Source of the DNA: Planctomycetota bacterium
GTDB lineage: Bacteria > Planctomycetota > SZUA-567 > H5-PLA8
Length of the DNA stretch: 64,000 bases
Reading direction: 5' to 3'
NCBI GenBank assembly: GCA_023150555.1
Contig: JAKLKQ010000015.1
Span: 1-64,000, forward strand
Shown here: piece by piece, positions 4,939 to 27,848 of the stretch
How positions within the stretch are numbered: position 1 is the first letter of the stretch
Layout of the letters: every line of letters begins with the position of its first letter
The notes under the pieces: generated by a model
Told to the model about the DNA's origin: nothing
The model's database searches: none
The model's input: only the letters and a program-made list of their open reading frames with translations
Program-made: the position numbers and the translations under genes

Positions 4939-5029
4939 GATGTGCGTTCCTTCTCTAAGAGCGGCTGCCCACCGGACATCCGGCCGGCCGTTGGCTGCCC
5001 CGCGTCCCACGGGCGGGGCTCCGGGGCGC

Positions 5030-9600: not shown

Positions 9601-10224
9601 ATGATCGGACGAACGGGATTGGCCGCACTTTGCTGTACCCTCTGGATGGCGGCAGCATGTCACGCTGAGGACACCGACAACAAGTTTGTCGGCGTTGGGA
9701 AGTGCAAGAACTGCCACGCCGAGCCCACCAAGGGCGACCAGTACAACAACTGGTTGAAAGAAAAGCACTCCAAGGCATACGAGACACTGGCCTCGGAGGC
9801 CGCCAAGAAGACCGCGAAGGAGAAGGGCATTGAAGACCCGCAGAAGAGCGCCGAGTGCCTGCAATGCCACGTCACGGCCTACGGCGTCGCCGCCGAGCAG
9901 AAGCATAAGAAGTTCGACGAGACGCAGGGCGTGCAGTGCGAATCCTGCCACGGCCCCGGCGACAAGCACGTCAAAGCGCGCCTGGCCGGCGAGGATCCCC
10001 CGGCGGACAAGCCCTTGAAGATCGGCGAAGGCGAGATCAACCGAACGCCCGGTGCGGACACCTGCAAGAAGTGCCACAACGAGAAGTCCCCGAACTACAA
10101 GCCGTTCTGCTACAAGAAGTTCGCCAAGGAGATCGCGCACCTGGACCCGCGCCGTGGGCACGCCGCGGACCACTTCGACAAGTTGGAATGCGACTGCGAA
10201 GAGTGCAAGAAGGCAGGCAAGTGA
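9601..10224 (+). CDS. Tetraheme c-type cytochrome, cytochrome c554-like
   Basis: 207 aa, with a signal peptide (MIGRTGLAALCCTLWMAAACHA) and four CxxCH heme sites: CKNCH, CLQCH, CESCH and CKKCH. The first site, the C-x-x-C-H-x-x-x pattern after a short N-terminus and the CESCHGPG motif resemble the cytochrome c554 family of periplasmic electron carriers. The C-terminus carries extra cysteines (ECDCEEC) without His, which are not heme sites. The ATG at 9601 has GAGG upstream and gives a clean signal peptide; a longer upstream frame lacks one. It is the first gene of a four-gene operon that ends with the NrfD-like protein, and is probably the soluble periplasmic acceptor or donor. Confidence 0.88.
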   Translation: MIGRTGLAALCCTLWMAAACHAEDTDNKFVGVGKCKNCHAEPTKGDQYNNWLKEKHSKAYETLASEAAKKTAKEKGIEDPQKSAECLQCHVTAYGVAAEQKHKKFDETQGVQCESCHGPGDKHVKARLAGEDPPADKPLKIGEGEINRTPGADTCKKCHNEKSPNYKPFCYKKFAKEIAHLDPRRGHAADHFDKLECDCEECKKAGK

Positions 10225-10242
10225 GCGAAAGGGGATGCGACG

Positions 10243-10875
10243 GTGAACGCTTCATCCAAGAAGCTGGCCGTCACCCTGGCCGCCGCAGTGCTGCTCAGCC
10301 TGGGCGTCTTCCGATTCTGGGCCTTCTCGGCGGAAGAGAAGGAAGGCCCGGAAAAGGAAGCGTCCGCGGCTGAGGAGGACGGCGGAAAGAAGACCCCCGC
10401 TCCGGACTCCAAGCCCCCCGGCGCACAGCCCCAGAGCGTCATGGAAGATGCGGAAGCCACGCCCGTGGCCCCGCCGCCCTTCTCGCCAGGCATCTTCCCC
10501 TGTTCGGGCTGCCACGAGGACCTGGACCCCAACCCCACGGTCCGAACGCTTAAGCGCAAGCACACCAACATCGTACTGGAACACGATGAGAAAAACCGCT
10601 GGTGCTACGACTGCCACACACAAGGCAACATGGACAAATTGCATCTGGCCAGCGGCAAGCCGGTGGACTTCAGCGAGTCCTACAAACTCTGCGGACAGTG
10701 TCACGGCCCCACACTGCGCGACTGGAAGGCCGGCGAACACGGCAAGCGAACCGGAAGCTGGTCCGGCGCCAAACAGTATCTGCTATGCGTGAACTGCCAT
10801 AACCCGCATTCGCCCAAGTTCCAGCCCCTGAAACCGTTGCCGCCGCCAGTGCGGCCTAAAGATCTGAGGCCCTAG
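10243..10875 (+). CDS. Tetraheme cytochrome subunit, doubled-CxxCH type
   Basis: 210 aa. The GTG at 10243 follows AAAGGGG at good spacing. An N-terminal hydrophobic segment (KLAVTLAAAVLLSLGVFRFW) acts as signal or anchor, then a Glu/Pro/Ala-rich linker (about 30-80), then four heme sites CSGCH, CYDCH, CGQCH and CVNCH in the paired-CxxCH arrangement. Such cytochromes commonly accompany an FeS protein and an NrfD-like membrane subunit in quinone-linked complexes. The gene sits 18 bp after the c554-like gene and 2 bp before the FeS subunit gene, so the three are surely co-expressed. Confidence 0.88.
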   Translation: MNASSKKLAVTLAAAVLLSLGVFRFWAFSAEEKEGPEKEASAAEEDGGKKTPAPDSKPPGAQPQSVMEDAEATPVAPPPFSPGIFPCSGCHEDLDPNPTVRTLKRKHTNIVLEHDEKNRWCYDCHTQGNMDKLHLASGKPVDFSESYKLCGQCHGPTLRDWKAGEHGKRTGSWSGAKQYLLCVNCHNPHSPKFQPLKPLPPPVRPKDLRP

Positions 10876-10877
10876 CC

Positions 10878-11825
10878 ATGGCCCACGAGTGCCACTGCGA
10901 AACTATAGATTGCCAGACGCCGGCAGGCAACGAACAGGCGCCGTCTCCCGACCGCCGTGAGTGGGTGAAGGGCATGGCGGCCGTCGCGGCCGGCCTAATG
11001 GCGGCCGGCTGCACCGACCAGGCCTCGGTGGACGCCTTCCTCCAGAAGCACTTCCGCGAACTCTCCAAATCCGAGCTTCAGGAAGTTCTGGAGCGGCTCG
11101 AGAAGCAGTATTCGGAGCAATACGGGAAGGACGTCGAGGTCAAGGCAACGCCCGCGAAGGAAGGCGTGAACTTCGGCTACGCGCTGGATATCTCGCGCTG
11201 CATTGGCTGCCGGCGCTGCGTCTACGCCTGCGTGGGCGAGAACAACCAGTCGCGCGACCCGCAGGTCCACTGGATCACCGTGCTCGAGATGGACAAGGAG
11301 CACGGCGTCAGCCTGGAGCATGCCGACGCCTACTACGACGGCGAACAGGTGCCGCGCGAAGGCAAGTTCTACTTCCCGGTCGCCTGCCAGCAGTGCAGCA
11401 ACCCGCCCTGCTGCAAGGTCTGCCCCGTCAACGCAACGTACCCAGACCAGGACGGCATCGTGGTCATCGACTACGATTGGTGCATCGGCTGCCGCTGCTG
11501 CATGTCGGCCTGCCCGTACGGCGCACGCCGGTTCAACTGGAGCGACCCCTCGATCCCCAGCGACGAGATGAATCCCGACACCGAGTACCTGGGCAACCGG
11601 CCGCGCCCCAAAGGCGTCGTCGAAAAGTGTACCTTCTGCCTGCAGCGCACGCGCCAGGGGCTTTACCCGAAGTGCGTCGAGGCCTGCCCGGTCGGCGCGC
11701 GCAAGTTCGGCAACCTGTTGGACCCCAAGAGCGAGATTCGCTACATCCTCGAGAACAAGCGCGTCTTTATCCTCAAGGAAGAACTGAAGACGATGCCCAA
11801 GTTCTACTACTACTACGGGCTGTAA
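10878..11825 (+). CDS. Tat-exported four-cluster [4Fe-4S] ferredoxin subunit (NrfC/DsrO-like)
   Basis: 315 aa. It has a twin-arginine start (DRREWVKG, R26-R27) followed by a hydrophobic stretch and the lipobox LMAAGC (C45), so export by Tat and lipidation are predicted. Four cysteine groups follow: CIGCRRCVYAC (from C108), CSNPPCCKVCP, CIGCRCCMSACP and CTFC...CVEACP, enough for four [4Fe-4S] clusters. This is the iron-sulfur wire of NrfC/PsrB/DsrO-type complexes, which pass electrons between the NrfD-like membrane subunit and a catalytic or cytochrome partner. No molybdopterin catalytic subunit lies nearby, so here the partner is probably the tetraheme protein. It is 19 bp upstream of the NrfD-like gene. 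Confidence 0.93.
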   Translation: MAHECHCETIDCQTPAGNEQAPSPDRREWVKGMAAVAAGLMAAGCTDQASVDAFLQKHFRELSKSELQEVLERLEKQYSEQYGKDVEVKATPAKEGVNFGYALDISRCIGCRRCVYACVGENNQSRDPQVHWITVLEMDKEHGVSLEHADAYYDGEQVPREGKFYFPVACQQCSNPPCCKVCPVNATYPDQDGIVVIDYDWCIGCRCCMSACPYGARRFNWSDPSIPSDEMNPDTEYLGNRPRPKGVVEKCTFCLQRTRQGLYPKCVEACPVGARKFGNLLDPKSEIRYILENKRVFILKEELKTMPKFYYYYGL

Positions 11826-11844
11826 GGGAACGGGACGCTCGGCA

Positions 11845-13122
11845 ATGAAAAGCTTCGTGACCTTCGTCTTGGGGAGCATGCGGACGGTCTTCCGCGGCAG
11901 CCCGGCCTACTTCGCCTGGATCGGACTCCTGGTCCTGCTGATCATCCAGGGCATCGGCGCCTACTGCACCCAGGCAACCGAAGGCCTGATCGTCACCAAC
12001 ATGCGCGACAGCGTCTCCTGGGCGTTCTACATCGGGAACTTCACCTTCCTCGTCGGCGTGGCCGCCGCGGCCGTGATGCTGGTGATCCCGGCCTACATCT
12101 ACGACTGGAAGCCGATCAAGGAAGTCGTGGTCTTCGGCGAGATCCTGGCGGTCTCGGCGGTGATCATGTGCCTGCTCTTCGTGGTCGTGGACATGGGGCA
12201 CCCGGAGCGCTTCTGGCACCTGATGCCCTTCGTGGGGAAAGTGAACTTCCCCTCCTCGCTGCTCGCCTGGGATGCCCTGGTCCTGAACGCCTACCTGGGC
12301 CTGAACCTGGTCGTCGCCACGTACATCGTGTACTGCGCCTTCAACGGCAAACATTACAACCCGCAGATCGTGGTTCCGCTGGTCATCTTCTCGATCCCCA
12401 TGGCCATCAGCATCCACACGGTGACGGCCTTCCTCTACAACGGCATGGCCAGCCGCCCGTACTGGAACTCGGCCATCCTGGCGCCGCGGTTCCTGGCTTC
12501 GGCGTTCTGCTCGGGTCCGGCGATCCTGCTGATCCTCTTCCAGGTCCTGCGCAAGGTCACGAAGTTCGAGATCAAGGACGAGGCCCTGCACAAGATCGCG
12601 GAACTGATGGCCTACGCAATGGGCTTCAACCTCTTCCTGACCGCCGCCGAGATCTTCAAGGAGTACTACTCCGACACCCAGCACTTGGTCCACATCCAGT
12701 ACCTCTTCGGCGGCGTGCACGGCGAACACAGCCCCATCGCGCTGTATGGATGGGCCTCTCTGCTGTTGGGCATCTTCGCCTTCCTGCTCTTCCTGGTGCC
12801 GGCGACCCGGCGCAATCCGGTCACCATGAACGCGGGCGCGCTGATGATCTACGCGTCGGTCTACATCGAGAAGGGCATCGCGCTGATCATTCCCGGTTAC
12901 ACGCCGGATACGCTGGGCCAGATCTACGAGTACGTGCCCAGCATCACCGAGCTGCGCATATCCGCCGGCGTCTTCGGGGTCGGCTTCCTGGCCCTGACCC
13001 TGATGATCAAGGTTGCGGTGCACGCGATGTTCATCCCTCACGCGGAACACGCCGAACACGAAGGCGCGTCCCACGATACCCCCCAAGTGGCTCCTCCCGA
13101 GGCGGCGGCGAAGCCCGCCTGA
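11845..13122 (+). CDS. NrfD/DsrP-like quinone-interacting membrane protein
   Basis: 425 aa with about nine to ten hydrophobic helices across the whole length, and features of the NrfD/PsrC/DsrP family such as GHPERFWHL and SSLLAWDALVLNAYLG. Family members oxidise or reduce the quinone pool at the membrane and exchange electrons with a ferredoxin subunit like that encoded just upstream. The C-terminus is a His/Glu-rich tail (HAEHAEHEGASH). It is the last gene of the operon; a sigma-54-type promoter begins immediately after its stop codon. The FeS-NrfD pair with two tetraheme cytochromes suggests a quinol:cytochrome oxidoreductase. Direction of electron flow cannot be read from the sequence. 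Confidence 0.92.
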   Translation: MKSFVTFVLGSMRTVFRGSPAYFAWIGLLVLLIIQGIGAYCTQATEGLIVTNMRDSVSWAFYIGNFTFLVGVAAAAVMLVIPAYIYDWKPIKEVVVFGEILAVSAVIMCLLFVVVDMGHPERFWHLMPFVGKVNFPSSLLAWDALVLNAYLGLNLVVATYIVYCAFNGKHYNPQIVVPLVIFSIPMAISIHTVTAFLYNGMASRPYWNSAILAPRFLASAFCSGPAILLILFQVLRKVTKFEIKDEALHKIAELMAYAMGFNLFLTAAEIFKEYYSDTQHLVHIQYLFGGVHGEHSPIALYGWASLLLGIFAFLLFLVPATRRNPVTMNAGALMIYASVYIEKGIALIIPGYTPDTLGQIYEYVPSITELRISAGVFGVGFLALTLMIKVAVHAMFIPHAEHAEHEGASHDTPQVAPPEAAAKPA

Positions 13123-13123
13123 G

Positions 13124-13139
13124 TGGCCCATCGGTTGCA
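13124..13139 (+). promoter_or_regulatory. Sigma-54-type (-24/-12) promoter of the heptaheme cytochrome gene
   Basis: TGGCCCATCGGTTGCA differs from TGGCACG-N4-TTGCA at only two positions, and GG-N10-GC spacing is exact (13125-13126, 13137-13138). It starts 1 bp after the nrfD-like stop. Predicted transcription start is near 13150, about 137 nt before the ATG at 13287. It closely resembles the minus-strand site at 20935-20950. This is the best of the five sites. Confidence 0.7.
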
Positions 13140-13286
13140 TAAGATTTAAATAGCGGCGTAACGGACGCCGCGGCGCCCGGAGCCGCCGCCTTCTGGAACC
13201 TGAGCCTCACCCTTGGGTTGTACGGTTCACGAAAAGCAGATAGAAAGGTCGCATTACATTTGTCGTGATTCTGCAGGAGGAGCATC

Positions 13287-15008
13287 ATGGACAAGTCCAC
13301 CGGCCCCACGGAACCCAAGGCGCCCGACGAAAGCGCCGGCGCGTCCGAAGCTCCGAATTCCGATAACTTGGCCAAGGCCGCCGGGAATTCGGCTCCCGAG
13401 GCATCAGCCACGGCAGGCGAAGGCGCCGCGGACCTACAGGGGGATGCGAACAAGTCCGACCGCCCAGGCAGCTTCACCATCCGGCTGCAGTCCCTCCCTA
13501 AATCGGAGAGCGGCAGGATACGCATTACGTATGGCTACCTGGCCAAGAACCTGATCAGCCTGATGGGCATTTCGGGAATGGTCATCTTCGGCCTGATGCT
13601 GCTCTTCCTGTCCATGCTGGACCTGCTGGGCGTCTTTCGGGACGGCAGCCCCTACACCGGCCTGATCACCTACGTGCTGGTCCCCGCGCTGCTGACGGCC
13701 AGCTTCTTCTTCACCCTGCTGGGCATGGCCTGGCGATGGTGGCGCAGCAAGAAGCGGGGTATCCGGTTCGAAGTGGTGCCCGGCCACACGCGCAAGACCA
13801 AAGTCGCGGTCGTGGCGATGGCGATCTTCGTCACGCTCACCTGGGTCATGGGCACCAGCTTCGGCACATACCGCGCGTACCACTATATGGAGTCCAACGA
13901 ATTCTGCGGGCTGGCCTGCCACCAGGTGATGGAACCGGAATACGTCGCGGCCAAGATCTCGCCCCACAGCCGGGTGGCCTGCGTCGAGTGCCACATCGGG
14001 CCCGGCGCCGACTACTTCGTGAAGGCGAAGTACCGCGGCCTGCAGCAGCTCTGGCTCTCCTACAGCGACGAGGCGCAAACGCCGATCAAGACGCCCGTCG
14101 AGAGCATGCGCAGCGCGCGGGAGATCTGCGGGCAGTGCCACTGGCCGGACCGCTCGATTCAGAACGTCGAGCGCGTCTTCGTGCACTACGCCCAGGACGA
14201 CGAAAACACAAAGGTCCAGTACAACCTGATGATGAAGGTCGGCGGCGGCCCCATGAAGAGCCACGGCGCGCACTGGCACGCCAGCGAGCAGTTGGAAGTA
14301 CACTATCTGGCCCGCGACGAAGAACGCCAGGACATCCCCTACGTGCGCGTCAAGCAGCCGGACGGCAAGATCGAGGAATACATGGAGGACGGTTTCGACC
14401 GCTCCACGATCGTGGAATCGGAGCTGCGCCTGATGAGCTGTCTGGACTGCCACAACCGCCCGGCGCACCGCTTTCTGTCACCCAGCCGCGCGGTGAATGA
14501 AGCCATGCACCGCGAGGACATCTCGCCCAACCTGCCGGGCATCAAGAAGGTCGCCATGGACGCGCTGAAAGGCGACTACAAGACCCGCGACGAGGCCTTT
14601 ACCGCCATCGACAAGGCCCTGGACGACTACGTCAAAACGAAGAAGCTCACGCCCGAGCAGCGCGACCTGCTGCCCAAGACGCGCGAGAACTTGAAGGAGA
14701 TCTACGCCAAGCGCTTCTTCCCCGAGCACGGCGTCGACTACCGCGCCTTCTTCGACAACATGGGGCATTTCGAGTACAAGGGATGTGACCGCTGCCACGA
14801 CGGAAACCACAAGTCCGCCAACGGCGGCGAACCCATCACCCACGACTGCAACGCGTGCCACACGATCATCGCGCAGTCGACGGGCGAGGAAGAGGACAAG
14901 CCCAACGGGCAGGTGAACTACAAGGCAGTCAAGTTCGAGCACCCCGAGGACCCGGTGAACCTCAAGAAGAGCTGCAATTCGTGCCACGGGATAAAGAAGG
15001 ACAAGTAG
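13287..15008 (+). CDS. Membrane-anchored heptaheme c-type cytochrome (NapC/NrfH-like start)
   Basis: 573 aa. The first ~85 residues are a low-complexity Ala/Pro/Glu/Asp stretch on the cytoplasmic side. Three hydrophobic helices follow (about 92-115, 125-150 and 171-190). After them come one CxxxCH (CGLACHQVMEPEY) and six CxxCH sites: CVECH, CGQCH, CLDCH, CDRCH, CNACH and CNSCH. The membrane helix directly followed by a C..CH-x-V-M-x-P-E segment is the NapC/NrfH quinol-dehydrogenase theme, and CxxxCH first sites are known in that family. It therefore probably takes electrons from the membrane or quinol into the periplasm. The ATG at 13287 has AGGAGGAG upstream. It is the first gene of its own unit behind a strong sigma-54-like promoter. 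Confidence 0.9.
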   Translation: MDKSTGPTEPKAPDESAGASEAPNSDNLAKAAGNSAPEASATAGEGAADLQGDANKSDRPGSFTIRLQSLPKSESGRIRITYGYLAKNLISLMGISGMVIFGLMLLFLSMLDLLGVFRDGSPYTGLITYVLVPALLTASFFFTLLGMAWRWWRSKKRGIRFEVVPGHTRKTKVAVVAMAIFVTLTWVMGTSFGTYRAYHYMESNEFCGLACHQVMEPEYVAAKISPHSRVACVECHIGPGADYFVKAKYRGLQQLWLSYSDEAQTPIKTPVESMRSAREICGQCHWPDRSIQNVERVFVHYAQDDENTKVQYNLMMKVGGGPMKSHGAHWHASEQLEVHYLARDEERQDIPYVRVKQPDGKIEEYMEDGFDRSTIVESELRLMSCLDCHNRPAHRFLSPSRAVNEAMHREDISPNLPGIKKVAMDALKGDYKTRDEAFTAIDKALDDYVKTKKLTPEQRDLLPKTRENLKEIYAKRFFPEHGVDYRAFFDNMGHFEYKGCDRCHDGNHKSANGGEPITHDCNACHTIIAQSTGEEEDKPNGQVNYKAVKFEHPEDPVNLKKSCNSCHGIKKDK

Positions 15009-15061
15009 TCCAAGCACGGAGGCCGCCGGGGTCCGCGCAGGAACGTTTGAAAGGATCCCAC

Positions 15062-15427
15062 ATGCCGCCGACCGAAGCGCCGGCCACGCCGGCGCCCTTC
15101 GACACGACGCTGAACGAGCGCGAGCGCCGACTTACGCAGCGCCTGGTCGGGAAGTACATGCGTGAGGGCTCGCCCTTGCTGCGCAGCCTGCTCATCTTCA
15201 GCGCGCTGGTGGGCATCGGCCACGCCATCGAGCAGGCACCCCTGCCGGGCTGGGCGACCTTCCTTCTGGTGTACATACCGGCTATCTTCTTGTTCACGCG
15301 GTACCGGCGTTTCAGCATCTTCAAGTCCCGGCTGCTCTGCAAACTGTCGGTCATGGCCGGGGTCGTTGAGCTTTCCGCCGACGGGAAGCCGCTCGCGGCG
15401 CCGGCACATTTGGACAAGAGTTCCTAA
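15062..15427 (+). CDS. Small two-helix membrane protein of unknown function
   Basis: 121 aa. The N-terminal ~40 residues are hydrophilic and charged, with the pattern LNERERRLTQRLVGKYMREGSP. Two hydrophobic helices follow (about 45-62 and 68-85), then a basic loop and a short polar tail ending LDKSS. I do not recognise the family. The ATG at 15062 follows GAAAGGATC; a longer in-frame extension would overlap the heptaheme gene. It sits 53 bp downstream of the heptaheme cytochrome and 26 bp before the HEAT-repeat gene, so an assembly or anchoring role is plausible but unproven. Confidence 0.7.
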   Translation: MPPTEAPATPAPFDTTLNERERRLTQRLVGKYMREGSPLLRSLLIFSALVGIGHAIEQAPLPGWATFLLVYIPAIFLFTRYRRFSIFKSRLLCKLSVMAGVVELSADGKPLAAPAHLDKSS

Positions 15428-15453
15428 GGACGGATTCCCGAAATGGGAATGAC

Positions 15454-17883
15454 ATGACGCAAGACGCGCCGCCCCCTTCACCGCAGAGCCCCAATTTCCG
15501 CGAAGGCGGGGAAGCACCGCGGCACTTCGTCGGACCGAACGCACCGGCATCCTCCGGACCGGGGCGTTATGTGTCTCTCCTCGCCCTGCTCGGCGTCGTT
15601 GCGGTGGCGGTCGTGGTCTGGCTGCGCCTCGATGCCGGCAGCACAAACACCGAGCCGGGAACCGGCCCGACACCGCCTGGGACGCACGACGGCACGAAGC
15701 CCAACAACGAAACTCCGGAGCCGGCGAACGAGGACCGGGCTGCGCTGCGCCTTTCCGAAGGCCAGCGGTCGATTGCGGACGTCGCCTCGGCGCTGAAGAC
15801 CCAGCCGAAGTGGGCGGCACCGGGCTGGGAAGAATGGGCCGGGGGCTGGCGCGTTACGGAGTACCGCGGCGTCCCCGAGCTTCAGGATGCGGAAGCGCTC
15901 GCGCTGCTTTCGCAGATCGGTCTGCTCGCGCGCCCGGCTACCGGCGGCGGGTGGGAAGTCCGGCCCGAGAACTGCACCGAGCGCCTTTGGAAGCTTCTGG
16001 CTGCCGACGTCGACCCGCACGGCGCGAGTTGGGGCGCCCTGCGCCCCTGGACCCGCCTGACGCTGCACGACGAGCGGCCGTTCGGCGTGCTGCTCGAGGC
16101 CGCCAAGGCGAAACCCGGCGCGGAATCCCTGGCTGCGCTGGGCTTCGCCCTGCACGGCCGCACGCGCATCCTGCGCGTGGAGAACTCGGGGCGCATCGCA
16201 CTGACGACGGACGATCTCCCTTCGAGCGAGCAAAGGTTGGCTGCCGAAGCGCTGCTTTGCGCGGCAGCCGATCCGGCGAACAGCAAGGACTCTCGCCTGC
16301 GCGCCGCGGCCGTCGCGGCCCTGGGCGAGCGCCTGCGCAGCGCGCCTCAGGAGCAGCTGCCCGCTGAGCATCCGGTGATGGCGCGTCTGGCGGCAGCGCT
16401 GAAAGACGCGGACTTGGAGGTGGCCTGCCAGGCGGCATTGGCATTGGGCGAAACCGCCTCGGCAGACGCGGTCCCGGTCCTGTTCCAGGTCTTGGAACAG
16501 GCGCAGACGCCCGCGACGCTGTCCGCGGCGGCCATGGCGGCGCTCTGGCATGCCGAGGGCCTGGGCCGGCGCTTGGGTGCCGAGGAACTGGGAAAAGAGG
16601 CCTGGACCCGGCGTCGGGACGTGCACTTGGTGCTGCGCCCGTGGCTCATCGCCTTTGCCGAGAAGGAAGACCCCGCAAGACTCGACACCGCGCGCGCGGC
16701 CGCCTGGCTGCGCCTCACGGACGTCTTCCATCCCAAGCCTATGCCCGAAGCCTTCGCGGCTTCCGTGGCCGAGCGGCTCTGGGCCAGCGGCGAAACCCCC
16801 GCACGGCTGGTGGTCGTCTCGAGGCAGCGCGCGCGCCGCCTGGACCTGCCTGGCGCGCCCTCCGACGAAGTGCGCGTCGCGATGCTGGCCGGGCCGCTGT
16901 GGCACCGCGAGCCGCTGCCGTTCGCGGATGCCCAGGATCTTTTCGCGAGGGGCTCCTTCCCGGTCCGGCAGGCGGTGCTCTGGCGGATGACGCGCTTCGA
17001 GCCTGCCCGCACAGCCGCCAAGCGGGATGCCTCGGCGGAGGCCCTCGCCCAACTCCTCGGCGAGGCCGCGCGAAAGGAGAGCGATTCGCGCCTGCGCAGC
17101 CTGGCTCTGCTTGCGCTGTACAAGGAGCGCCCGCTGGAGGGCGCCGGCGGTCGGACCTGGCGGCTGTGGGTCGACCCGACGCTGGCCATGGACGTCTTCC
17201 TTGCGGAAATGGACGCCGCCACGCAGACGACCGCCGCCTCGATCGTAGGGCGCATCGCGGGCCCCTACGACCTGCTGCCCAAGCACCTGAACCGCGTGGC
17301 CGGCCAGAATCCCCAGGCCGTGGAGGAGTTGTTCGAACAGCTGCGGCTGCGCTGGCAGGGCGGCGAAGGGAAGAACGAAGGGTTCGATACGGAAATCAAG
17401 AAACTCCTCAGTCAGCTAAAAAACGCGGAGCACAAGTCGCTGGCGGCGCTCGCGCACTGGCTGCGCACCTGCGATCCCGGCTTGGATCTAGCCGACCGCC
17501 TGCGCCTGGTCCGCGCCTGCCCGACGGCGGCCTCGAAGGCGATGGCCATGAGTTCCCTGGCCGACCTGCTGCTGCGCACCAACGCCATGCTTCCGGCGTC
17601 TCAGGCGAACTTCCTGCTCGGCGACCCCGAACCCGCGCTTCGCACCGCCTTCTTTCGCGAAGGCCTGGCCGCGCGCACCGATGCCTCCGAATCCGAACGC
17701 ATGGCCTTGTATCGAAAGGGGCTTTCCGACAAGGCGCCGGCCGTGCGCGTGGCCGCGCTCAAGGCGCTTGCGCCGGTCTGGTCCGAGCTGAAGGATGAAT
17801 TGGGCAAACAGGTGGAGAAGCTTGCGGCGGACGATCCGGATACCCAGGTTCGCGCCGCGGCCGCGGCGTTGACGCAAGAGTAG
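15454..17883 (+). CDS. Membrane-anchored HEAT-repeat protein
   Basis: 809 aa. A hydrophobic helix near residues 41-57 (LLALLGVVAVAVVVWLRL) follows a Pro-rich N-terminus. The rest, presumably outside the cytoplasm, is alpha-helical and Ala/Leu-rich. HEAT/PBS-like units are clearest around 275-355 (LRAAAVAALGE, VACQAALALGE) and at the C-terminus (VRVAALKALAP, VRAAAAALTQ). Such repeats form protein-binding scaffolds. No heme or catalytic motif is seen. Being the last gene of the heptaheme unit, it may be a scaffold for the electron-transfer complex (inference). The start codon has only a weak GGGA site. Confidence 0.7.
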   Translation: MTQDAPPPSPQSPNFREGGEAPRHFVGPNAPASSGPGRYVSLLALLGVVAVAVVVWLRLDAGSTNTEPGTGPTPPGTHDGTKPNNETPEPANEDRAALRLSEGQRSIADVASALKTQPKWAAPGWEEWAGGWRVTEYRGVPELQDAEALALLSQIGLLARPATGGGWEVRPENCTERLWKLLAADVDPHGASWGALRPWTRLTLHDERPFGVLLEAAKAKPGAESLAALGFALHGRTRILRVENSGRIALTTDDLPSSEQRLAAEALLCAAADPANSKDSRLRAAAVAALGERLRSAPQEQLPAEHPVMARLAAALKDADLEVACQAALALGETASADAVPVLFQVLEQAQTPATLSAAAMAALWHAEGLGRRLGAEELGKEAWTRRRDVHLVLRPWLIAFAEKEDPARLDTARAAAWLRLTDVFHPKPMPEAFAASVAERLWASGETPARLVVVSRQRARRLDLPGAPSDEVRVAMLAGPLWHREPLPFADAQDLFARGSFPVRQAVLWRMTRFEPARTAAKRDASAEALAQLLGEAARKESDSRLRSLALLALYKERPLEGAGGRTWRLWVDPTLAMDVFLAEMDAATQTTAASIVGRIAGPYDLLPKHLNRVAGQNPQAVEELFEQLRLRWQGGEGKNEGFDTEIKKLLSQLKNAEHKSLAALAHWLRTCDPGLDLADRLRLVRACPTAASKAMAMSSLADLLLRTNAMLPASQANFLLGDPEPALRTAFFREGLAARTDASESERMALYRKGLSDKAPAVRVAALKALAPVWSELKDELGKQVEKLAADDPDTQVRAAAAALTQE

Positions 17884-17890
17884 CCCGCCA

Positions 17891-17941
17891 AGTAACCGTT
17901 GTTACTCGTCCATGCAAGCCTGAGCGGCAAATGCGCCGCTC
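17891..17941. terminator. Two hairpins between convergent genes
   Basis: AGTAAC-CGTT-GTTACT (17891-17906) and GAGCGGC-AAATGC-GCCGCTC (17922-17941) are perfect stems between the HEAT-repeat gene and the oppositely oriented 13-heme gene. They could act as bidirectional terminators, but neither is followed by a real T-tract on either strand. Confidence 0.3.
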
Positions 17942-17960
17942 CGCGCTTTCGGAAAAGCCG

Positions 17961-19004
17961 CTAGCGTTTGTGGCAGTTCAGGCAGTCGGTGCCCGGATCG
18001 GGGTGCGGCGCCAGGAGTCCGCCGTGGCAGGTCGAACTCTGGCAGTCCGTCGGCGACACGAGGGTGGGCGGGTGGGTGTTGGGCACCGTGGGCGCCGCGT
18101 TGTGGCTCGGCGTGCCCTTGTGGCAGACGAAGCAGGTGTTGTCGCGCAGTGGGAAGTGGCAGGTCGTGCAGTGGTCGCTCTCGAAATTGCCGCGGTGGTT
18201 CTGCGGAGCCGTGGTGCGGTGGCAGCGCACGCAGAAGTCTTCCGTATGGCAGACCTTGCAGCTGCGGTCCATCTCGGCCATCACGCCGTGGCCGCGCAGG
18301 CGCCAGTAGTCGGTGTGGTTCTTGGGCTCTTCCTCCCGGTGGCACTTGACGCAGGTCTGCTGGGTATGGCAGAGGTCGCAGCTGGCCGTGCTGCCCTTGG
18401 CCACGAACCCGGCCTCGCGCCCGTGCAGTTCCTTCCAGTTGTCCTGGTGGTTCGCGGGCTTCCATTCGCGCGAGATGTAGGTGTGGCAGACCAGGCAGCT
18501 GTCCTTCGCGTTGTCGCGTACGCCGACCTTCTGCTTGGCGTGGCAATCCATGCAGTCCTTCATGGTCACGCGCACGGCCATCGTGACCTTCTTGCTCTTC
18601 TCGATGCCCTTGTGGCAGCTGCTACACTGGACCTTGGCGTCGGCGTGCCGCTTGTGGCTGAACTTCACGTCGTCGGTGAAGTGCGTGAAATTCGAGAACT
18701 GGACGACGCCGTTTTTCTCGAAGTTGCTGACGCGCTTGGCCTCGGGCTTCTTGGCATCGAGGCCTTTGTGGCACTTCATGCAGCTGTCCAGTTCGGGCAT
18801 GCCGGCCTTGTCTTCCTTCGTGGCGCCCTTGTGGCAGACGATGCACTCGATCTCTTCGTCTTCGACGTGGATTGCGTGCGGGAAGCTCGGGGTGTTCCGC
18901 TTGGGCGCGCCGTCTTCCTTGTCGCAGCCCACCAGCACGGCCAGAGCGGCCAGAGCCAGCAGGCCCAGGGGCGGAAGCAAGCGTCTATGTCGTCGCACAC
19001 CCAT
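17961..19004 (-). CDS. 13-heme c-type cytochrome lipoprotein
   Basis: 347 aa. The N-terminus is a lipoprotein signal: basic RRHRR, a hydrophobic run, and lipobox LAVLVGC. There are twelve CxxCH motifs (CIVCH, CMKCH, CSSCH, CMDCH, CLVCH, CDLCH, CVKCH, CKVCH, CVRCH, CTTCH, CFVCH and CLNCH) plus one CxxxxCH (CQSSTCH), giving up to 13 hemes, about one per 27 residues. This density is typical of nanowire-like cytochromes in porin-cytochrome conduits. The gene follows the beta-barrel gene by 41 bp on the same strand, as in MtrAB- or OmbB/OmaB-type pairs, so it probably occupies or docks to the pore. No close family assignment is claimed. RBS GGGAAGG precedes the ATG. Confidence 0.9.
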   Translation of the reverse strand: MGVRRHRRLLPPLGLLALAALAVLVGCDKEDGAPKRNTPSFPHAIHVEDEEIECIVCHKGATKEDKAGMPELDSCMKCHKGLDAKKPEAKRVSNFEKNGVVQFSNFTHFTDDVKFSHKRHADAKVQCSSCHKGIEKSKKVTMAVRVTMKDCMDCHAKQKVGVRDNAKDSCLVCHTYISREWKPANHQDNWKELHGREAGFVAKGSTASCDLCHTQQTCVKCHREEEPKNHTDYWRLRGHGVMAEMDRSCKVCHTEDFCVRCHRTTAPQNHRGNFESDHCTTCHFPLRDNTCFVCHKGTPSHNAAPTVPNTHPPTLVSPTDCQSSTCHGGLLAPHPDPGTDCLNCHKR

Positions 19005-19045
19005 GGTCGGCCTTCCCTATCGCCATCCCAAGGCAGGCGTCCGGT

Positions 19046-20791
19046 TCAGAAATCGAATCGGAAGCTGGCCGTAAACGTATGGAAATTGTCGGTCCGGCTC
19101 TCTTCGAACTCGTACTTCGCGTCCAGGCGCGCCCACTTCGTGGGCCTCCAGCGGTGCTTGATGTAGTATCCGCGGACCTCGTCGCGCTCGTTTACCGCGA
19201 AGAAATCGAACTTGTACAGGCTGTAATCCGTACCGACCGAGGTCCGGTTTTCCTTGTTCCACTGGTAGGTGATGTCGCCGCCGGCCTGCGCCGTGCTTGG
19301 CGCGTGCTCGTGGCCGTCGTAGCGCATGCCGGTCAGGCTGAAGGTCAGGCCCTTCACGGGCAGATCGCGGATCTGGAATGTGACGTGGTAGCGGTCGAAT
19401 TCGCGGTTGAACTGGCTCTCCTCGCCCGTCAGGCGGCGAGCGGTGGCGCCGCCTTCCATCCAGAAGTGGTCGTTCCAGCCCTTGCTGACGATGATCGTGC
19501 CGCGGTGATAGGGCTCTTGCCCCTGGAGCGTATCGAAGAAGTAGTCGAACTCGTTGCTCGTGCGCCGCAGCTGCTGGAACCAGCCCTGGTAGGAGCCAGA
19601 GACCTGCAGGCGCCATTCGGGCTTGCTGTAGACCACGCGCGCGGTGGCGTCGCGGATCTCGTCGTCCAGCGCGGTCGCGCGGCCGTAGATATGGATGTTG
19701 GGATTGCGGAAGGTCTGCCACAGGCTCAGGGCCAGCAGATCGTTGTGGTGCGCGCGGTGGCGATTGATGTCGTCGGCCGCGTGCGTCCAGTCCAGGCGCA
19801 TGCGGGCCGTCTCCCAGGGCCGGCCTTCGGCAGCCAAGCCGGCGACGACGTCTTCGCTGGTGGACGGCGCGAACTGGTGGACCGGGATGCCTCCGTAGAA
19901 GCTGAAGCGCACGTCGTACTTGCCGAAGAAGCCCTCGGTGTCCAGCCGCAGCCCGTCGAATTGCAGGATCTCGGGGGTCTCGAACATGAACTGGCGGCCG
20001 GCGCGGATGAACTCGATGCCCTGCACGCGGTGGATGTCCGCGTAACAAGAGTACAGGCGCAGGTCCAGCGCGCTGCTGTAGGTGTCCAGAACGTTGTAGA
20101 AGACGTCCGAGTTGATGCCCGTCCTGCGGCTGTCGAGGTCGGCCGAGAAGCGCAAGTCGAAGTGCCCCGTCGCGCGGTGGACCTGCTTGTCGCCGACGTC
20201 CATCGTAACCAGCTGGTAGATGTCCTGGTCCTTGGCCCCTTCGCCGCTGCGGATCCTGTAGCGCGTCGTCGTGGAGCCGGTGACCGGGAAGTCGAAGAAG
20301 CGCTCGCCCAGGGACTTAAAGTCCTCGGCACGCTTCCGGCGCTGCTCCAACTGCTCGGGTGTGGGTTCGGGAGCGGGCGGAACGACCGGTTCGGGCTCCG
20401 CCTCCTCCTTACCTTCAGCGCCCTTGACGTCGCCTTCCCTCGGCGCGGCTTCCTTCTCCTTCTCGCCGTCGTCCTCGTCCTTGTCCTGGTCTTCCGCCTT
20501 GGCCCTTTCGTCCTTCGGATCGCCGAGCGGCTCGCCTTCCTGCGCGCCTTCGCCGGCTCCCGCAGGCGCCTCTGCCGGCGCAGCCGTGGGTTCGTCGGCG
20601 GCCACCGCGGTGGGAACGGTCTCGCCCTCTTCGGTTTCGGCGGCAGGCTTGGGCTGGTCCGATTCGGCCGGCGTTCCGTCCGGAGCGGGCGGAGGCAACA
20701 GTGCGCCTTCTTCAGCCAAGGCGCAGTTGGCCGTGGCCATCAGGACGCCGAAGCAAAAGGCAACGGCCAGCGATCGAATGGAGGTCGCCAT
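19046..20791 (-). CDS. Outer-membrane beta-barrel, putative porin of a porin-cytochrome conduit
   Basis: 581 aa. The signal peptide (SIRSLAVAFCFGVLMATANCALA) is followed by about 140 residues very rich in Ala, Pro, Glu and Asp, a disordered acidic linker. The remaining ~400 residues alternate polar and aromatic residues in amphipathic strands with repeated Tyr/Arg/Asp turns (for example RWRPTKWARLDAKYEF) and end in FRFDF, the C-terminal Phe expected for BAM-inserted barrels. No heme motif. Its position directly before the 13-heme lipoprotein gene suggests that the barrel sheathes that cytochrome. An ordinary porin or alginate-export-like channel is the alternative. Ribosome binding sequence before the ATG is weak. 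Confidence 0.75.
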   Translation of the reverse strand: MATSIRSLAVAFCFGVLMATANCALAEEGALLPPPAPDGTPAESDQPKPAAETEEGETVPTAVAADEPTAAPAEAPAGAGEGAQEGEPLGDPKDERAKAEDQDKDEDDGEKEKEAAPREGDVKGAEGKEEAEPEPVVPPAPEPTPEQLEQRRKRAEDFKSLGERFFDFPVTGSTTTRYRIRSGEGAKDQDIYQLVTMDVGDKQVHRATGHFDLRFSADLDSRRTGINSDVFYNVLDTYSSALDLRLYSCYADIHRVQGIEFIRAGRQFMFETPEILQFDGLRLDTEGFFGKYDVRFSFYGGIPVHQFAPSTSEDVVAGLAAEGRPWETARMRLDWTHAADDINRHRAHHNDLLALSLWQTFRNPNIHIYGRATALDDEIRDATARVVYSKPEWRLQVSGSYQGWFQQLRRTSNEFDYFFDTLQGQEPYHRGTIIVSKGWNDHFWMEGGATARRLTGEESQFNREFDRYHVTFQIRDLPVKGLTFSLTGMRYDGHEHAPSTAQAGGDITYQWNKENRTSVGTDYSLYKFDFFAVNERDEVRGYYIKHRWRPTKWARLDAKYEFEESRTDNFHTFTASFRFDF

Positions 20792-20934
20792 GCGATGTTT
20801 CGAACACTTTTCCTTTTGAGAGCAGGGCTTAACTTATCTGCCAAATCCCCAATGCGCAAGTGCAACCTTCGCGAAATGCCCAAATTCTCGCGGGCAACGC
20901 GAACGTAAATGAAGGCACGAAGCCATATTCGCAA

Positions 20935-20950
20935 CGCAACCGGAAGGCCA
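20935..20950 (-). promoter_or_regulatory. Sigma-54-type (-24/-12) promoter of the porin-cytochrome operon
   Basis: Minus-strand TGGCCTTCCGGTTGCG has exact GG-N10-GC spacing and matches TGGC at -24 and TTGC at -12. It shares TGGCC and CGGTTGC with the site at 13124. Transcription would start near 20924, about 133 nt before the porin ATG at 20791. Confidence 0.6.
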
Positions 20951-21282
20951 GTGCCACGTTTCCCAAGGCATACATGCCAGTAGATTCGGTGAACTCGGTT
21001 CCGTGCAGACTGCCCTATGTGAATTGCGTTTCGCCTTCAAACCACCGCATCGCCAAGTAGTTGGTACAGGGATTGGGCCTCATTGTGAAGCCTTGGCTTT
21101 TGGAAACATTGGCTGCCAATTTTCCGGCGCTCGCGACCGGGAAATTGGCGAACAGCTTCGGCGGGCAGCGATGCTCGAAAATGCTGGCCAGGCGCGATGC
21201 GACAATTAGATATAGATATCCTCTGTTACTCGTTTGGCGCCCTTGAATTACATGCGTAGCCCTGTGGGGTACCAAGGCCCGG

Positions 21283-21297
21283 CACCTGCCATAGGTG
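21283..21297. promoter_or_regulatory. Small dyad upstream of the octaheme promoter
   Basis: CACCT-GCCAT-AGGTG is a perfect 5-bp inverted repeat about 120 bp upstream of the -24 element at 21415, the usual distance for an NtrC-family activator. The arms are short, so it could be chance. Confidence 0.2.
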
Positions 21298-21413
21298 GGA
21301 CGAAGTTCATAAGCTCAATACTCGAACCCGCTTATACGCCACCCCTCCTACCTGCAAAGATGTTACATCTTGCGGCCAATGGGTTTATATTTTAGGTATA
21401 TCTTTAAAATTTT

Positions 21414-21429
21414 AGGCATTTGCTTTGCA
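21414..21429 (+). promoter_or_regulatory. Sigma-54-type (-24/-12) promoter of the octaheme cytochrome gene
   Basis: AGGCATTTGCTTTGCA has GG at 21415-21416 and GC at 21427-21428, 10 bp apart. It matches GGCA at -24 and all of TTGCA at -12. Transcription would start near 21440, 50 nt before the ATG at 21490. Confidence 0.6.
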
Positions 21430-21489
21430 GATGCCAGATTAATGGTTGGTACAGTATTCTTGGGGCTGCGGGTGGAGGAGGATTCGATC

Positions 21490-23616
21490 ATGACTACGTG
21501 GGTGAAGGCACGGTGGGGGCGCCTCCTGCTAGCGGTCCTGGCTTTGGCAGGAGTGCTGGTGGCAAGCCAAGTCGGCGAGGAGGTCCAAGCGACCTCGGCG
21601 GTCTCAAAGGCCGTCGCTAAGGTCAAGACCAAGAGCATCAAGGGTAGCGTGACCGACAGTCAGGGCCGCATCCTGGTCGGCGCCACGGTCTACTTTATCG
21701 ATGCCTCAACGATCAATTTCGATGCCATCACCCAGGCAAGCATGGGGGACCGGTCCGCGGAAGACCGCGACGAACCACTGGAAGACATCATCCGCGACGA
21801 CGTCAAGCGCGCCGCTTTGCCCTTTGCGATCACGGACAGCAAGGGCCGCTTCAAGGCCAAGCTGCCCGTCGCCCGCCACTTCGCCTTTGTTGAACCCAAC
21901 AACTCCGACTATCTACCTGGTGGCAGTGTCAGCCGTGAGGCCTTCCTGCCCACGTCCCTGCCCAAGACGGGATTGAACATTCAAGTCAGCTGGGCCACAC
22001 CCGGCGATGCCACCTACATCGGCACAACCGCCTGCCTGGTCTGCCACGATGGCGGCTTGGCGACCGACAAGCGCGGTTGGGGCAGCCACGGGCACGCCCT
22101 GATGTACACTCGTGCAAGCGGCCCAACGACCATCCAGGACTTCTCCAAGCACCCCGGATGGGATGACTTCGCAAACAAGTTCCTGCCGGGCACGACCCAT
22201 ACGACTGGCACCAAGATCTTCCTGGTGGACTACGACAAGCTGCAAACCCGCCGCTTTATCCTCAAAGAAGGCAGCGCGGGAACTTCCACCGTGTTCTTCA
22301 CGGTTTACCTCTGGAAGGACACCAACGATGGCAATAAGTCCAAGGTCACGGTCGAAAGCGCAGCGGCCTCCGGCGACGCGGGGACGATCAACACCTATGA
22401 AGCCCTCGGCTTCATGGGCGGATACATCCGGCAACGTGTCCTGCTGAAGATCGAACCTACCCGCCTGGGCTTCTTCCGCGGCTTCCAGTTCCAGGCAATA
22501 GCGGGCAGCCCCTCGCAGGGCCAGGACTTCAACTACGACCGGAACAAGAAGCCCTACACGGAATCGGGCTCCGGCGGCGGCGGCATCCGGGACCTCTTCG
22601 ACGAGACCGGCGCCACGCCCAAGCAAAAGTTGCCTTCCGCCGTCTCAAAGAGCAGCATCTCCTGCGCGCTGTGCCATAACGGCGGCGCCACTCAGGTAAA
22701 CAAGCCCGCGCTCATCAACGGCGAGCAGCTGTTCACGACCGTCGGCGACCCCAACGGCGTCTTCGCCACCGGCGAAGCGTCCGACGGACTCCAGGACCTG
22801 GGCATCACCTGCGAACAGTGCCACGGCCCGGGTTCCAAGCATCGCGAACAAGCGCTGCTGCCCGACGAGATTATCAGCAAGAAGGTCACCATCACCCACA
22901 AAGGCAAGCATATCGTTCAGCCCGAAATGCTGAGCGTCGAGCGCGCCAGCCTGATCTGCGGCCGCTGCCACGGCAGCATCGAAGCGGAGCACCCCTGGCC
23001 GATGCCCGGCATCAGCCGCGCGGAATGGCTGGACATGGTCGTCGACGAAGGGAACTCGACCGGCGTCAGCGCCTCCAGGCTCTGGGCAGACGGCATCCAC
23101 GAGAAGGGCGGCCACCACGGCATGGGCTACACCAACTACATGCAGTCCGTGCACTACCGGAACGACCGCAAACTGGTGGCCTGCTTCGACTGCCACGGAC
23201 TCCATGGCGAGACGGACTACAAGTACGGCCTGAAAGCCGATCCGGACGACAGCACCGCGGGCCTCTGCCAGTCCTGCCACCTCAAGGACATCCGCCAACA
23301 CATGGAAGACAAGACCGGCGACGACATGAAGGGTCTGAGCACCAAGTGCTACGAATGCCACATGACCCGCACCGGAACCGGCGGCGCCGGCAAGCCCGGG
23401 CTCTTCAACGGCACACCAACGGGCAACCCGGCCACCGATCCGAGCATCGTCTACTGGCAGGGCGACCAGTCGAGCCACGTATGGGACGTGCCGAGCAAGA
23501 TGAGCGTGGGCGTGGCAAGCGTCCAGCCGGCTCTGGCGATGCCGACGCCGTACACCAACAACTGCGGCACCTGTCACGACGCCTCGGCGCTGCCGTTCCT
23601 GCCGCCGGAGCCGTAA
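21490..23616 (+). CDS. Secreted octaheme cytochrome with N-terminal carboxypeptidase-regulatory-like domain
   Basis: 708 aa. The signal peptide (LLLAVLALAGVLVASQ) is followed by a beta-sandwich-like segment (about 48-140, with IKGSVTDSQGRILVGATVYF and ITDSKGRFKAKLP) typical of carboxypeptidase-regulatory-like domains. Eight heme sites follow: CLVCH, CALCH, CEQCH, CGRCH, CFDCH, CQSCH, CYECH and CGTCH. Spacing between the first and second heme is unusually long (about 210 residues), so an extra domain lies between them. The fold could place it on the cell surface as terminal reductase or as an outer partner of the porin-cytochrome complex (inference). A frame extends 40 codons upstream, but the ATG at 21490 has GGAGGAG before it and starts the signal peptide. 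A strong terminator follows the gene. Confidence 0.88.
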   Translation: MTTWVKARWGRLLLAVLALAGVLVASQVGEEVQATSAVSKAVAKVKTKSIKGSVTDSQGRILVGATVYFIDASTINFDAITQASMGDRSAEDRDEPLEDIIRDDVKRAALPFAITDSKGRFKAKLPVARHFAFVEPNNSDYLPGGSVSREAFLPTSLPKTGLNIQVSWATPGDATYIGTTACLVCHDGGLATDKRGWGSHGHALMYTRASGPTTIQDFSKHPGWDDFANKFLPGTTHTTGTKIFLVDYDKLQTRRFILKEGSAGTSTVFFTVYLWKDTNDGNKSKVTVESAAASGDAGTINTYEALGFMGGYIRQRVLLKIEPTRLGFFRGFQFQAIAGSPSQGQDFNYDRNKKPYTESGSGGGGIRDLFDETGATPKQKLPSAVSKSSISCALCHNGGATQVNKPALINGEQLFTTVGDPNGVFATGEASDGLQDLGITCEQCHGPGSKHREQALLPDEIISKKVTITHKGKHIVQPEMLSVERASLICGRCHGSIEAEHPWPMPGISRAEWLDMVVDEGNSTGVSASRLWADGIHEKGGHHGMGYTNYMQSVHYRNDRKLVACFDCHGLHGETDYKYGLKADPDDSTAGLCQSCHLKDIRQHMEDKTGDDMKGLSTKCYECHMTRTGTGGAGKPGLFNGTPTGNPATDPSIVYWQGDQSSHVWDVPSKMSVGVASVQPALAMPTPYTNNCGTCHDASALPFLPPEP

Positions 23617-27809: not shown

Positions 27810-27848
27810 CAGGCTACCGAAAATACGAACCTCGTGGAGAACCGCGCG

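Follow-up and report, generated by a model that had tools for sequence, protein, structure and literature searches.

Organization of the heme-rich cluster

The subject of this work is a cluster of multiheme cytochrome genes at positions 9601-23616 of a 64,000-base stretch of planctomycete DNA (hereafter the window), which corresponds to bases 1-64000 of the 118,595-base contig JAKLKQ010000015.1 (assembly GCA_023150555.1), part of a 6.62 Mb genome that is 93.5% complete. An earlier sequence-only reading of this DNA had proposed that five cytochromes, an FeS-NrfD module and a porin-like barrel form an electron conduit between the quinone pool and the outer membrane. Its count of 4, 4, 7, 13 and 8 heme sites is confirmed by the translations of the open reading frames, in which the five genes hold 36 sites in total, i.e., 34 CX2CH motifs, one CX3CH in the 7-heme gene and one CX4CH in the 13-heme gene. 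A six-frame translation of the 64 kb, scanned for CX2CH alone, contains just two further CX2CH motifs outside this region (at 58224 on the plus and 41410 on the minus strand), and the cluster thus stands far above background. The interval also holds two genes absent from the earlier reading (15062-15427 and 15454-17883), and in the whole window no Rfam family above the gathering score and no tRNA were found. In the Pfam and NCBIfam scans, three proteins were entered with codons upstream of the likely ATG (from 9589, 15050 and 21370); the likely ATG starts of the first and last cytochrome genes are 9601 and 21490, respectively. The planctomycete origin that had been surmised is upheld by the best named match of the 13-heme protein, a locus of a Planctomycetota metagenome-assembled genome (MAG) with 53% identity (L086; L and G numbers are our handles for loci and genomes).

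An outer membrane barrel paired with a 13-heme lipoprotein

The central gene of the cluster (17961-19004, minus strand) encodes a 13-heme lipoprotein with 12 CX2CH motifs and one CX4CH motif, in which a pentaheme module (about residues 32-175) is followed by an 8-heme module (about residues 182-347). Searched for at E <= 1e-25 in 294 genomes sampled from the phylum, the protein was detected in 55, counting that of the window. None of the 13 heme sites varies across an alignment of 43 proteins, in which 13 distal histidines are conserved, 11 of them in every sequence, one in 41 and one in 35. One distal histidine per heme fits bis-histidine electron transfer without a catalytic heme. The lipobox cysteine (Cys27) is present in 42 of the 43 sequences. 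The 12th heme site of the window protein (18024-18044, minus strand; residues 321-327) is the CX4CH, a motif lacking in 41 of 42 relatives; the one relative that has it (L084) carries it in the same place.

The neighboring gene (19046-20791, minus strand) encodes a predicted outer membrane beta-barrel. Its AlphaFold2 model has 22 strands, with a predicted local distance difference test (pLDDT) score of 90 or more at 312 of 581 residues, a disordered N-terminal part of 130 residues and a C-terminal Phe that is invariant in alignments of 33 and of 37 sequences. The best 50 Foldseek matches listed among solved structures are outer membrane barrels, with E values down to 2.6e-10. At the sequence level, none of 37 barrel family members matches the MtrB/PioB Pfam family at E <= 0.01; any one family is matched by at most three of them, always weakly, these being chiefly porin families, and a PDB profile search of the barrel gave four matches, none of them MtrB/PioB. 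An NCBIfam match to a DNA polymerase subunit (27 bits versus a cut-off of 964) was rejected as probably due to the low-complexity N-terminus.

The barrel and the 13-heme lipoprotein are a real pair, as the sequence-only reading had supposed from their adjacency in the window. In all 42 loci fetched, the two genes share a strand and the barrel gene immediately precedes the 13-heme gene, the matched parts being 3-348 bases apart. These loci represent 42 of the 62 non-window places listed, mostly the better-scoring ones, and come from 37 genomes; adjacency was counted on matched domains, and L007 was dropped for having no full 13-heme frame. Split or fused matches (G089, G132, G238) came only through the search with the NrfD subunit described below, and named loci that repeat others (L086 = G002, L104 = G044, L088 = G087 and more) were not added to the 42.

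A contig scan yielded 58 named loci, among them loci of Candidatus Brocadia, Jettenia and Anammoxibacter. The Brocadia (L109, L112, L114, L115) and Jettenia (L113) relatives have 14 heme sites in stop-to-stop frames of 344-363 amino acids (392 in L115), and those of Anammoxibacter have 13 (L107) and 17 (L108), a third (L132) being cut by the contig end. No further frame with three or more sites is present in the stretch examined around the four Brocadia genes, while further cytochromes lie near the pair in Jettenia L113 and Anammoxibacter L108. Frames of the same family with 17 sites stand beside a barrel relative at L169:10006-11514, L170:3096-4451 and L108:9980-11302, two of them clustered with the NrfD module.

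In TonB-dependent receptors, the barrel lumen holds a plug of about 150 residues, and by standard barrel geometry the lumen of a 22-strand barrel is estimated to be similar. The C-terminal half of the 13-heme protein has about 165 residues, and this 8-heme half may well be inserted in the barrel.

Modular construction of the wire

In single-sequence searches, N-terminal residues 38-174 of the 13-heme protein match QrcA and the pentaheme subunits of alternative complex III (ACIII), and in a profile search matches of the QrcA/ACIII type extend at most to position 220 of 354; the QrcA model NF041781 scores 58.5 on this protein, below its cut-off of 180. Both halves also occur alone. Stand-alone 5-heme frames of 181-192 amino acids are found in four conduit clusters (L046, L048, L065 and L102, of which L088 and L091 are copies) and match the 13-heme family profile within positions 7-175. 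Conversely, eight loci (L123 to L129 and L131) from Nitrospirota, Acidiferrobacterales, another gammaproteobacterium and Spirochaetota carry a stand-alone frame of 6 or 7 sites that matches profile positions 182-327 (182-299 in L124). A barrel relative lies upstream of this frame in all eight loci, with low scores in two (58 bits in L125; 39 bits in L129, where the frame is cut), which indicates that the barrel goes with the C-terminal half.

The pentaheme domain has yet another partner. In five genomes (L167, L168, L170, L171 and L172), the tetraheme subunit of the NrfD module is fused to the N-terminal pentaheme domain of the wire family in a protein with nine sites, the pentaheme part first and the tetraheme part last. 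All five genomes are also among the conduit genomes, G089 and G132 by partial matches. The pentaheme thus reads as a shared relay domain that may be able to take a place on either side of the periplasm. Since NrfD complexes are the usual location of ActA and QrcA, the tetraheme-side fusion may be no more than the retention of an old partnership. It is a tentative proposal, held at a little under even confidence, that two swappable cytochrome modules build a conduit lineage of Planctomycetota, the anammox bacteria included, and several other phyla, that the pentaheme arm docks at either end of the periplasm, and that the NrfD module joins CymA, CbcL and ImcH as a fourth type of quinol oxidase in extracellular electron transfer (EET). 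No description of a 5+8 modular wire, or of a pentaheme arm on a DsrJOP-like module, was found in the literature, supplements being outside the search.

Two candidate quinol oxidases at the inner membrane

The gene at 13287-15008 (plus strand) encodes a putative inner membrane heptaheme cytochrome of the NapC/NirT family. The protein has hydrophobic segments at residues 85-103, 130-148 and 173-191, followed by a CX3CH motif and then by six CX2CH motifs. Its similarity to NapC/NirT is detected by PF03264 (28.7 versus a cut-off of 24.1) in residues 175-267, around the third segment, and no PDB relative was found at E <= 0.01. In 12 aligned sequences (here and in the alignments below, the window protein is included), the CX3CH and all CX2CH motifs but the last are invariant, that one being present in six. 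ImcH is described as having three membrane segments, an adjacent atypical CX3CH and typical motifs that number six in Geobacter and 5-9 across homologues, and in the same account its relatives are linked to quinol oxidation alone (PMC6295460). The window protein has the anatomy of ImcH and is a candidate for quinol oxidation.

Upstream of this gene, positions 10243-13122 of the plus strand encode three proteins that, judged by families and gene order, are a DsrJOP-like module of a tetraheme cytochrome, an FeS protein and an NrfD-type subunit. The cytochrome (10243-10875), which stands in place of DsrJ, has one N-terminal hydrophobic segment and four CX2CH motifs; these motifs and four distal histidines are present in 16-18 of 18 aligned sequences, and the MtrC/MtrF domain PF22113 is matched by a narrow pass (31.5 bits versus a cut-off of 30). 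The DsrO-like 4Fe-4S protein (10878-11825) carries a twin-arginine-like signal (RREWVKG) and a lipobox-like MAAGC and matches PF13247 over the cut-off, its score against the DsrO model NF045797 (175.8 bits) falling short of the cut-off of 200. The membrane subunit (11845-13122), with a presumed quinone site, exceeds the equivalog cut-off of the DsrP model NF045798 (408.7 versus 350 bits), scores 135.6 bits against PF03916, has eight hydrophobic segments at a strict threshold and finds in the PDB four matches, all of them NrfD or ACIII subunit C chains. The FeS-NrfD module of the earlier reading is thereby corroborated. NrfD relatives were detected in 57 of the 294 genomes, the window's included (E <= 1e-30), and the order tetraheme, DsrO-like, DsrP-like is conserved in all 20 loci fetched, i.e., in a distant one (G253) and in every non-window place of the close clade but G228 (19 of 20).

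DsrA (TIGR02064) has no match in the window's genome, making a function in sulfite reduction less likely; the same search in 14 control genomes gave eight matches below and none over the cut-off, and thus no true positive control. DsrM and DsrK are not among the cluster proteins in general family scans, the genome having been searched for neither. The NrfD-FeS-tetraheme module would oxidize quinol. A similar run of tetraheme, DsrO-like and DsrP-like genes, followed by cytochromes with 11, 9, 9 and 12 sites, was seen in Actinobacteria (L133:5742-12358 and L137:4837-11557), which are usually regarded as being without a classical outer membrane.

Accessory cytochromes

Two further cytochromes flank these modules. 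The first (9601-10224, plus strand) is a tetraheme protein of the cytochrome c554 family (PF13435, 64.7 bits versus a cut-off of 20.8; PDB cytochrome c554 1bvb, E 2.3e-7), in which the four CX2CH motifs are invariant and three distal histidines are present in 18-22 of 22 aligned sequences, and is a candidate periplasmic carrier. The last (21490-23616, plus strand) is an exported cytochrome with eight CX2CH motifs, invariant in eight aligned sequences, which matches CarboxypepD_reg below the cut-off (18.9 bits) and GSU2203/DmsE-type models far below theirs. It is a candidate surface cytochrome, relatives of which lie directly downstream of the 13-heme gene in four loci (L047, L073, L074 and L076).

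Linkage of the modules across genomes

Many of the 42 conduit loci end at contig ends, and the counts of their neighbors are therefore lower bounds. Twenty-five of the 42 have a c554 relative, and in 24 a large multiheme gene follows immediately downstream; eight encode an NtrC-type regulator (>150 bits), eight ResB or CcsA relatives and five a relative of the 8-heme protein (>100 bits). Four named loci (L093, L095, L097 and L111) have ImcH near the pair. The NrfD module and the conduit share one cluster in L169 and L170 and one contig in G301, and in L160 the NrfD module lies near an ImcH gene. Across genomes, the conduit occurs in 14 of the 21 with a close NrfD clade (459 bits or more) versus 41 of the 273 others (Fisher p 6e-7, kinship ignored); this test takes the two 294-genome samples as the same genomes and counts the window's genome among the 14.

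A probable conduit from the quinone pool to the cell surface

The explanation that accounts best for these observations, and that we consider probable, is that the cluster encodes a porin-cytochrome (Pcc) type EET system of a planctomycete that is fed by two quinol oxidases. Quinol would be oxidized at the inner membrane by the ImcH-type heptaheme cytochrome and also by the DsrP/DsrO-like NrfD-FeS pair, which would pass electrons to its own tetraheme cytochrome. The periplasmic relay would consist of the tetraheme c554 protein and of the pentaheme arm with which the 13-heme lipoprotein begins; the C-terminal half of this lipoprotein would carry electrons through the barrel, and the 8-heme protein, or further surface cytochromes, might then pass them on. 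A conduit from the quinone pool to the outer membrane, as first proposed, is supported by the invariant heme sites, the gene pairing, the 22-strand barrel, the ImcH anatomy and the DsrP score over its cut-off. A facultative respirer with an outside acceptor would fit best. The genome has two genes of the COX1 family (PF00115) over the cut-off, a family of oxidases that can also include nitric oxide reductases, and the RuBisCO large chain was not found in the 93.5% complete genome, other carbon fixation routes having not been searched for; together this suits a respiring heterotroph. From these two observations and the link of ImcH so far to quinol oxidation, an outward flow of electrons seems the better guess, although the sequence does not settle the direction. 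Contact between the parts, the surface location of the 8-heme protein and the identity of the acceptor are likewise presumed.

Several observations weigh against this explanation. For the 13-heme protein, structure prediction gave a model with a mean pLDDT of 56.4, too poor to trace a heme chain. The 50 Foldseek matches listed for the barrel are to barrels of a generic kind; MtrB and Pcc are not among their names, and their query TM-scores do not exceed 0.44. The relation of the barrel to conduit porins, a possible point of failure of the first interpretation, finds a divided answer, the sequence being not MtrB-like and the strand number and gene context being those of Pcc porins. In the 8-heme protein no lipobox was seen, and its gene is divergent from the barrel/13-heme pair. 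Just five conduit loci out of 42 hold an ImcH relative (>100 bits) and none holds a close DsrO, the limit set by cut contigs applying here too, and distant NrfD relatives are unlinked to the conduit (3 of 36 genomes versus 52 of 258). Finally, four loci (L082-L085) have no further frame with three or more sites in the 12-20 kb fetched, showing that the barrel/13-heme pair also occurs without such neighbors.

Since most relatives have the FeS-NrfD module at a distance from the conduit, module and conduit may belong to different chains, and the window would show side by side two modules that usually lie apart. On the corresponding alternative, a DsrJOP-like periplasmic quinone:cytochrome oxidoreductase serving another chain merely neighbors an ImcH/Pcc conduit, which is compatible with the conduit half of the explanation preferred here. 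The absence of a close DsrO from all 42 loci speaks for it, as does a genome of the same family (G002) in which the 4-heme/DsrO/DsrP module (contig C500) and the conduit with ImcH (contig C699) are on separate contigs. The loci mentioned above in which module and conduit share a cluster or contig, or module and ImcH are near neighbors, argue for a joint function, and so do the common pentaheme fusion and the enriched co-occurrence. On balance we hold separate systems to be rather unlikely. The original picture of all five cytochromes as one wire therefore stands for its conduit part, and with the NrfD module usually apart a single wire is an extrapolation; similarly, conservation of gene order in other genomes, proposed as a check, was found for the barrel/13-heme pair and within the NrfD module, the whole set being usually separate.

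It is also conceivable that the conduit works inward and brings to quinone the electrons of an external donor, which might be a metal surface, a partner cell, Fe(II) or Mn(II); ImcH or the NrfD subunit would then be the quinone reductase. NrfD complexes like Nhc are described as cytochrome c3:quinone oxidoreductases (PMC8076601), Qrc is reported to work towards menaquinone, porin-cytochrome pairs serve both directions in other bacteria according to the literature, and PF00115 genes are available for a downstream acceptor. The lack of a RuBisCO large chain, within the limits given above, and the description of ImcH relatives as tied only to quinol oxidation (as far as PMC6295460 goes) make this direction improbable. 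A periplasmic nitrite, sulfite, tetrathionate or polysulfide reductase system with accessory cytochromes, in which the barrel would be a solute porin, is very improbable despite the c554 family of the first cytochrome and the NrfD/FeS modules of many such reductases (PMC8076601), because none of the ten proteins shows a catalytic reductase family (e.g., of the Nrf, Mcc or Otr type) over the cut-off, no DsrA was found, the cytochromes have a single CXXCK-like motif (10195), whose lysine is present in <90% of 22 aligned sequences, and the barrel is tied to the 13-heme protein in every locus fetched; the homology to nitrite, sulfite or tetrathionate reductases that would have overturned the first proposal was thus looked for, with none over cut-off.

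Neighboring genes

Between the ImcH-type gene and the conduit lie two plus-strand genes, one for a small protein with two hydrophobic segments (15062-15427) that matches no Pfam or NCBIfam family over the cut-off, and one for a HEAT-repeat protein (15454-17883; PF13646, 36.9 versus 27.7) probably anchored in the membrane by one N-terminal hydrophobic segment, a scaffold candidate that has a relative near ImcH in a genome of the same family (L006). Upstream of the cluster, four genes are on the minus strand. The first two encode a CcsA/CcsB-type cytochrome c assembly protein for heme delivery (272-2590, the true start being probably later; PF01578, 103.9 versus 29.9; TIGR03144, 135.9, below its cut-off of 187.6) and a ResB-like cytochrome c assembly protein (2386-5010; PF05140, 49.8 versus 24.6), in agreement with the maturation pair named in the sequence-only reading. 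The other two encode a sigma-54-dependent NtrC-type response regulator (5030-6475; PF00158, PF00072 and PF02954 over cut-offs), which may regulate the cluster, and a membrane sensor histidine kinase with HAMP and PAS domains (6530-8395; PF02518, PF00672 and PF00512 over cut-offs), its likely partner. A search for sigma-54 promoters gave five one-mismatch sites versus 1.84 expected, a number reached in 6 of 100 shuffles, and two-mismatch sites at chance frequency. Adjoining the cluster downstream are genes for a GntR-headed LacI-type regulator (23723-24862), a glycoside hydrolase 123-like protein (25128-27809) and an FG-GAP repeat protein (27834-29753).

Significance

The cluster offers a candidate complete route from the quinone pool to the cell surface in a phylum in which few such routes are described, and implies that solids outside the cell may serve it as electron acceptors or donors. 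A conduit family that is defined by sequence and common to Brocadia and Jettenia makes the porin-cytochrome complex of electrode-dependent anammox testable by name. Moreover, domain swaps and docking with the fused pentaheme arm offer a way to test how electrons cross the periplasm, and the DsrP-like module directs attention to quinol oxidation of the NrfD type, possibly coupled to ion translocation, in extracellular respiration.

Comparison with known systems

The kind of system is known, its modular make-up is little described and the 5+8 modular wire is new here. The earlier statement that no described system is like this one therefore needs to be divided: the kind is in print, with Pcc pairs (PMC4245776) and with ImcH- or NapC/NirT-like cytochromes in six of the eight porin-cytochrome clusters reported for one group (PMC13264449), and the gene set was found in no title or abstract of the literature searched, supplements and subscription journals being outside the search. 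Relevant surveys are broad. One large scan reports 440 clusters without homologues in its own reference library (PMC11475568), the PCC3 and PCC4 systems include some Planctomycetes (PMC5566968), and porin-cytochrome clusters are described in freshwater Verrucomicrobia (PMC5615132) and in Planctomycetota MAGs (PMC10732223, PMC13264449), one tunnel MAG having an NrfD cluster downstream of the complex (PMC10732223). Our locus L104 comes from MAG OFTM77, which is named in PMC10732223, and L093, L102, L107 and L108 share its isolate prefix. As far as their descriptions can be set against the window pair, the Verrucomicrobia and Planctomycetota clusters resemble it in that a multiheme cytochrome is neighbored by a porin with about 20 strands, and differ in their octaheme or decaheme partners. 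PCC4, a porin with an FeS protein and a membrane protein, was rejected as a model because its membrane protein is described as having five helices and two HX13H motifs and is not NrfD (PMC5566968).

On the quinone side, the heptaheme cytochrome shares with ImcH of Geobacter the three N-terminal membrane segments, the CX3CH and the six CX2CH motifs, and differs in being in a planctomycete near a barrel/13-heme pair: in the survey by Zhong and Shi (2018), none of the 71 homologues is from a planctomycete and no mtrAB or mtoAB stands beside imcH (PMC6295460). The NrfD module resembles the DsrJOP part of DsrMKJOP in its cytochrome, FeS protein and NrfD-type subunit and in passing the DsrP cut-off. 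DsrJ is a triheme protein, whereas the window cytochrome is tetraheme, and the DsrO score below the cut-off and the lack of a DsrA in the genome are further differences. Regarding the arm of the wire, the pentaheme cytochromes QrcA and ActA (PDB 6f0k_A, 8k9e_A and 6btm_A) are matched in sequence by the N-terminal part of the window protein, in which, however, the pentaheme is fused to a wire module of the outer membrane and does not sit on a quinone enzyme.

MtrAB and PioAB are alike in principle, in that a multiheme wire stands in a barrel. However, the window protein has 13 rather than 10 sites and its barrel 22 strands versus the 28 motifs predicted for MtrB (Shi et al., 2014; PMC4245776), and the MtrAB assignment was rejected on the lack of an MtrB/PioB Pfam match, the PDB profile search, the heme number and a DmsE-family score (TIGR03508) of 23.2 bits versus a cut-off of 192.2, although the second tetraheme protein has the narrow MtrC/MtrF domain match given above. 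The closest likeness is to the Pcc pairs, with which the window shares a barrel gene beside the gene of an exported multiheme cytochrome and a strand number within the published Pcc porin range of 18-22 (Shi et al., 2014; PMC4245776). The Pcc cytochromes of Candidatus Kuenenia stuttgartiensis and Anaeromyxobacter are reported to have 338-344 amino acids and 12-14 sites, and the Kuenenia pair is described as a porin and a periplasmic cytochrome of 14 sites and about 340 amino acids, without an outer cytochrome and distant from other Pcc members (PMC4245776). The window differs in its 13 sites and in the ImcH and NrfD modules and 8-heme partner nearby. By this published description, the Kuenenia cytochrome is close to the Brocadia and Jettenia relatives in sites and length, which bears on the report that anammox bacteria pass electrons to electrodes, for which its authors invoke a porin-cytochrome complex (PMC7188810). 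The window pair is taken to be of the Kuenenia lineage, judged against what is published on Kuenenia rather than against its sequence.

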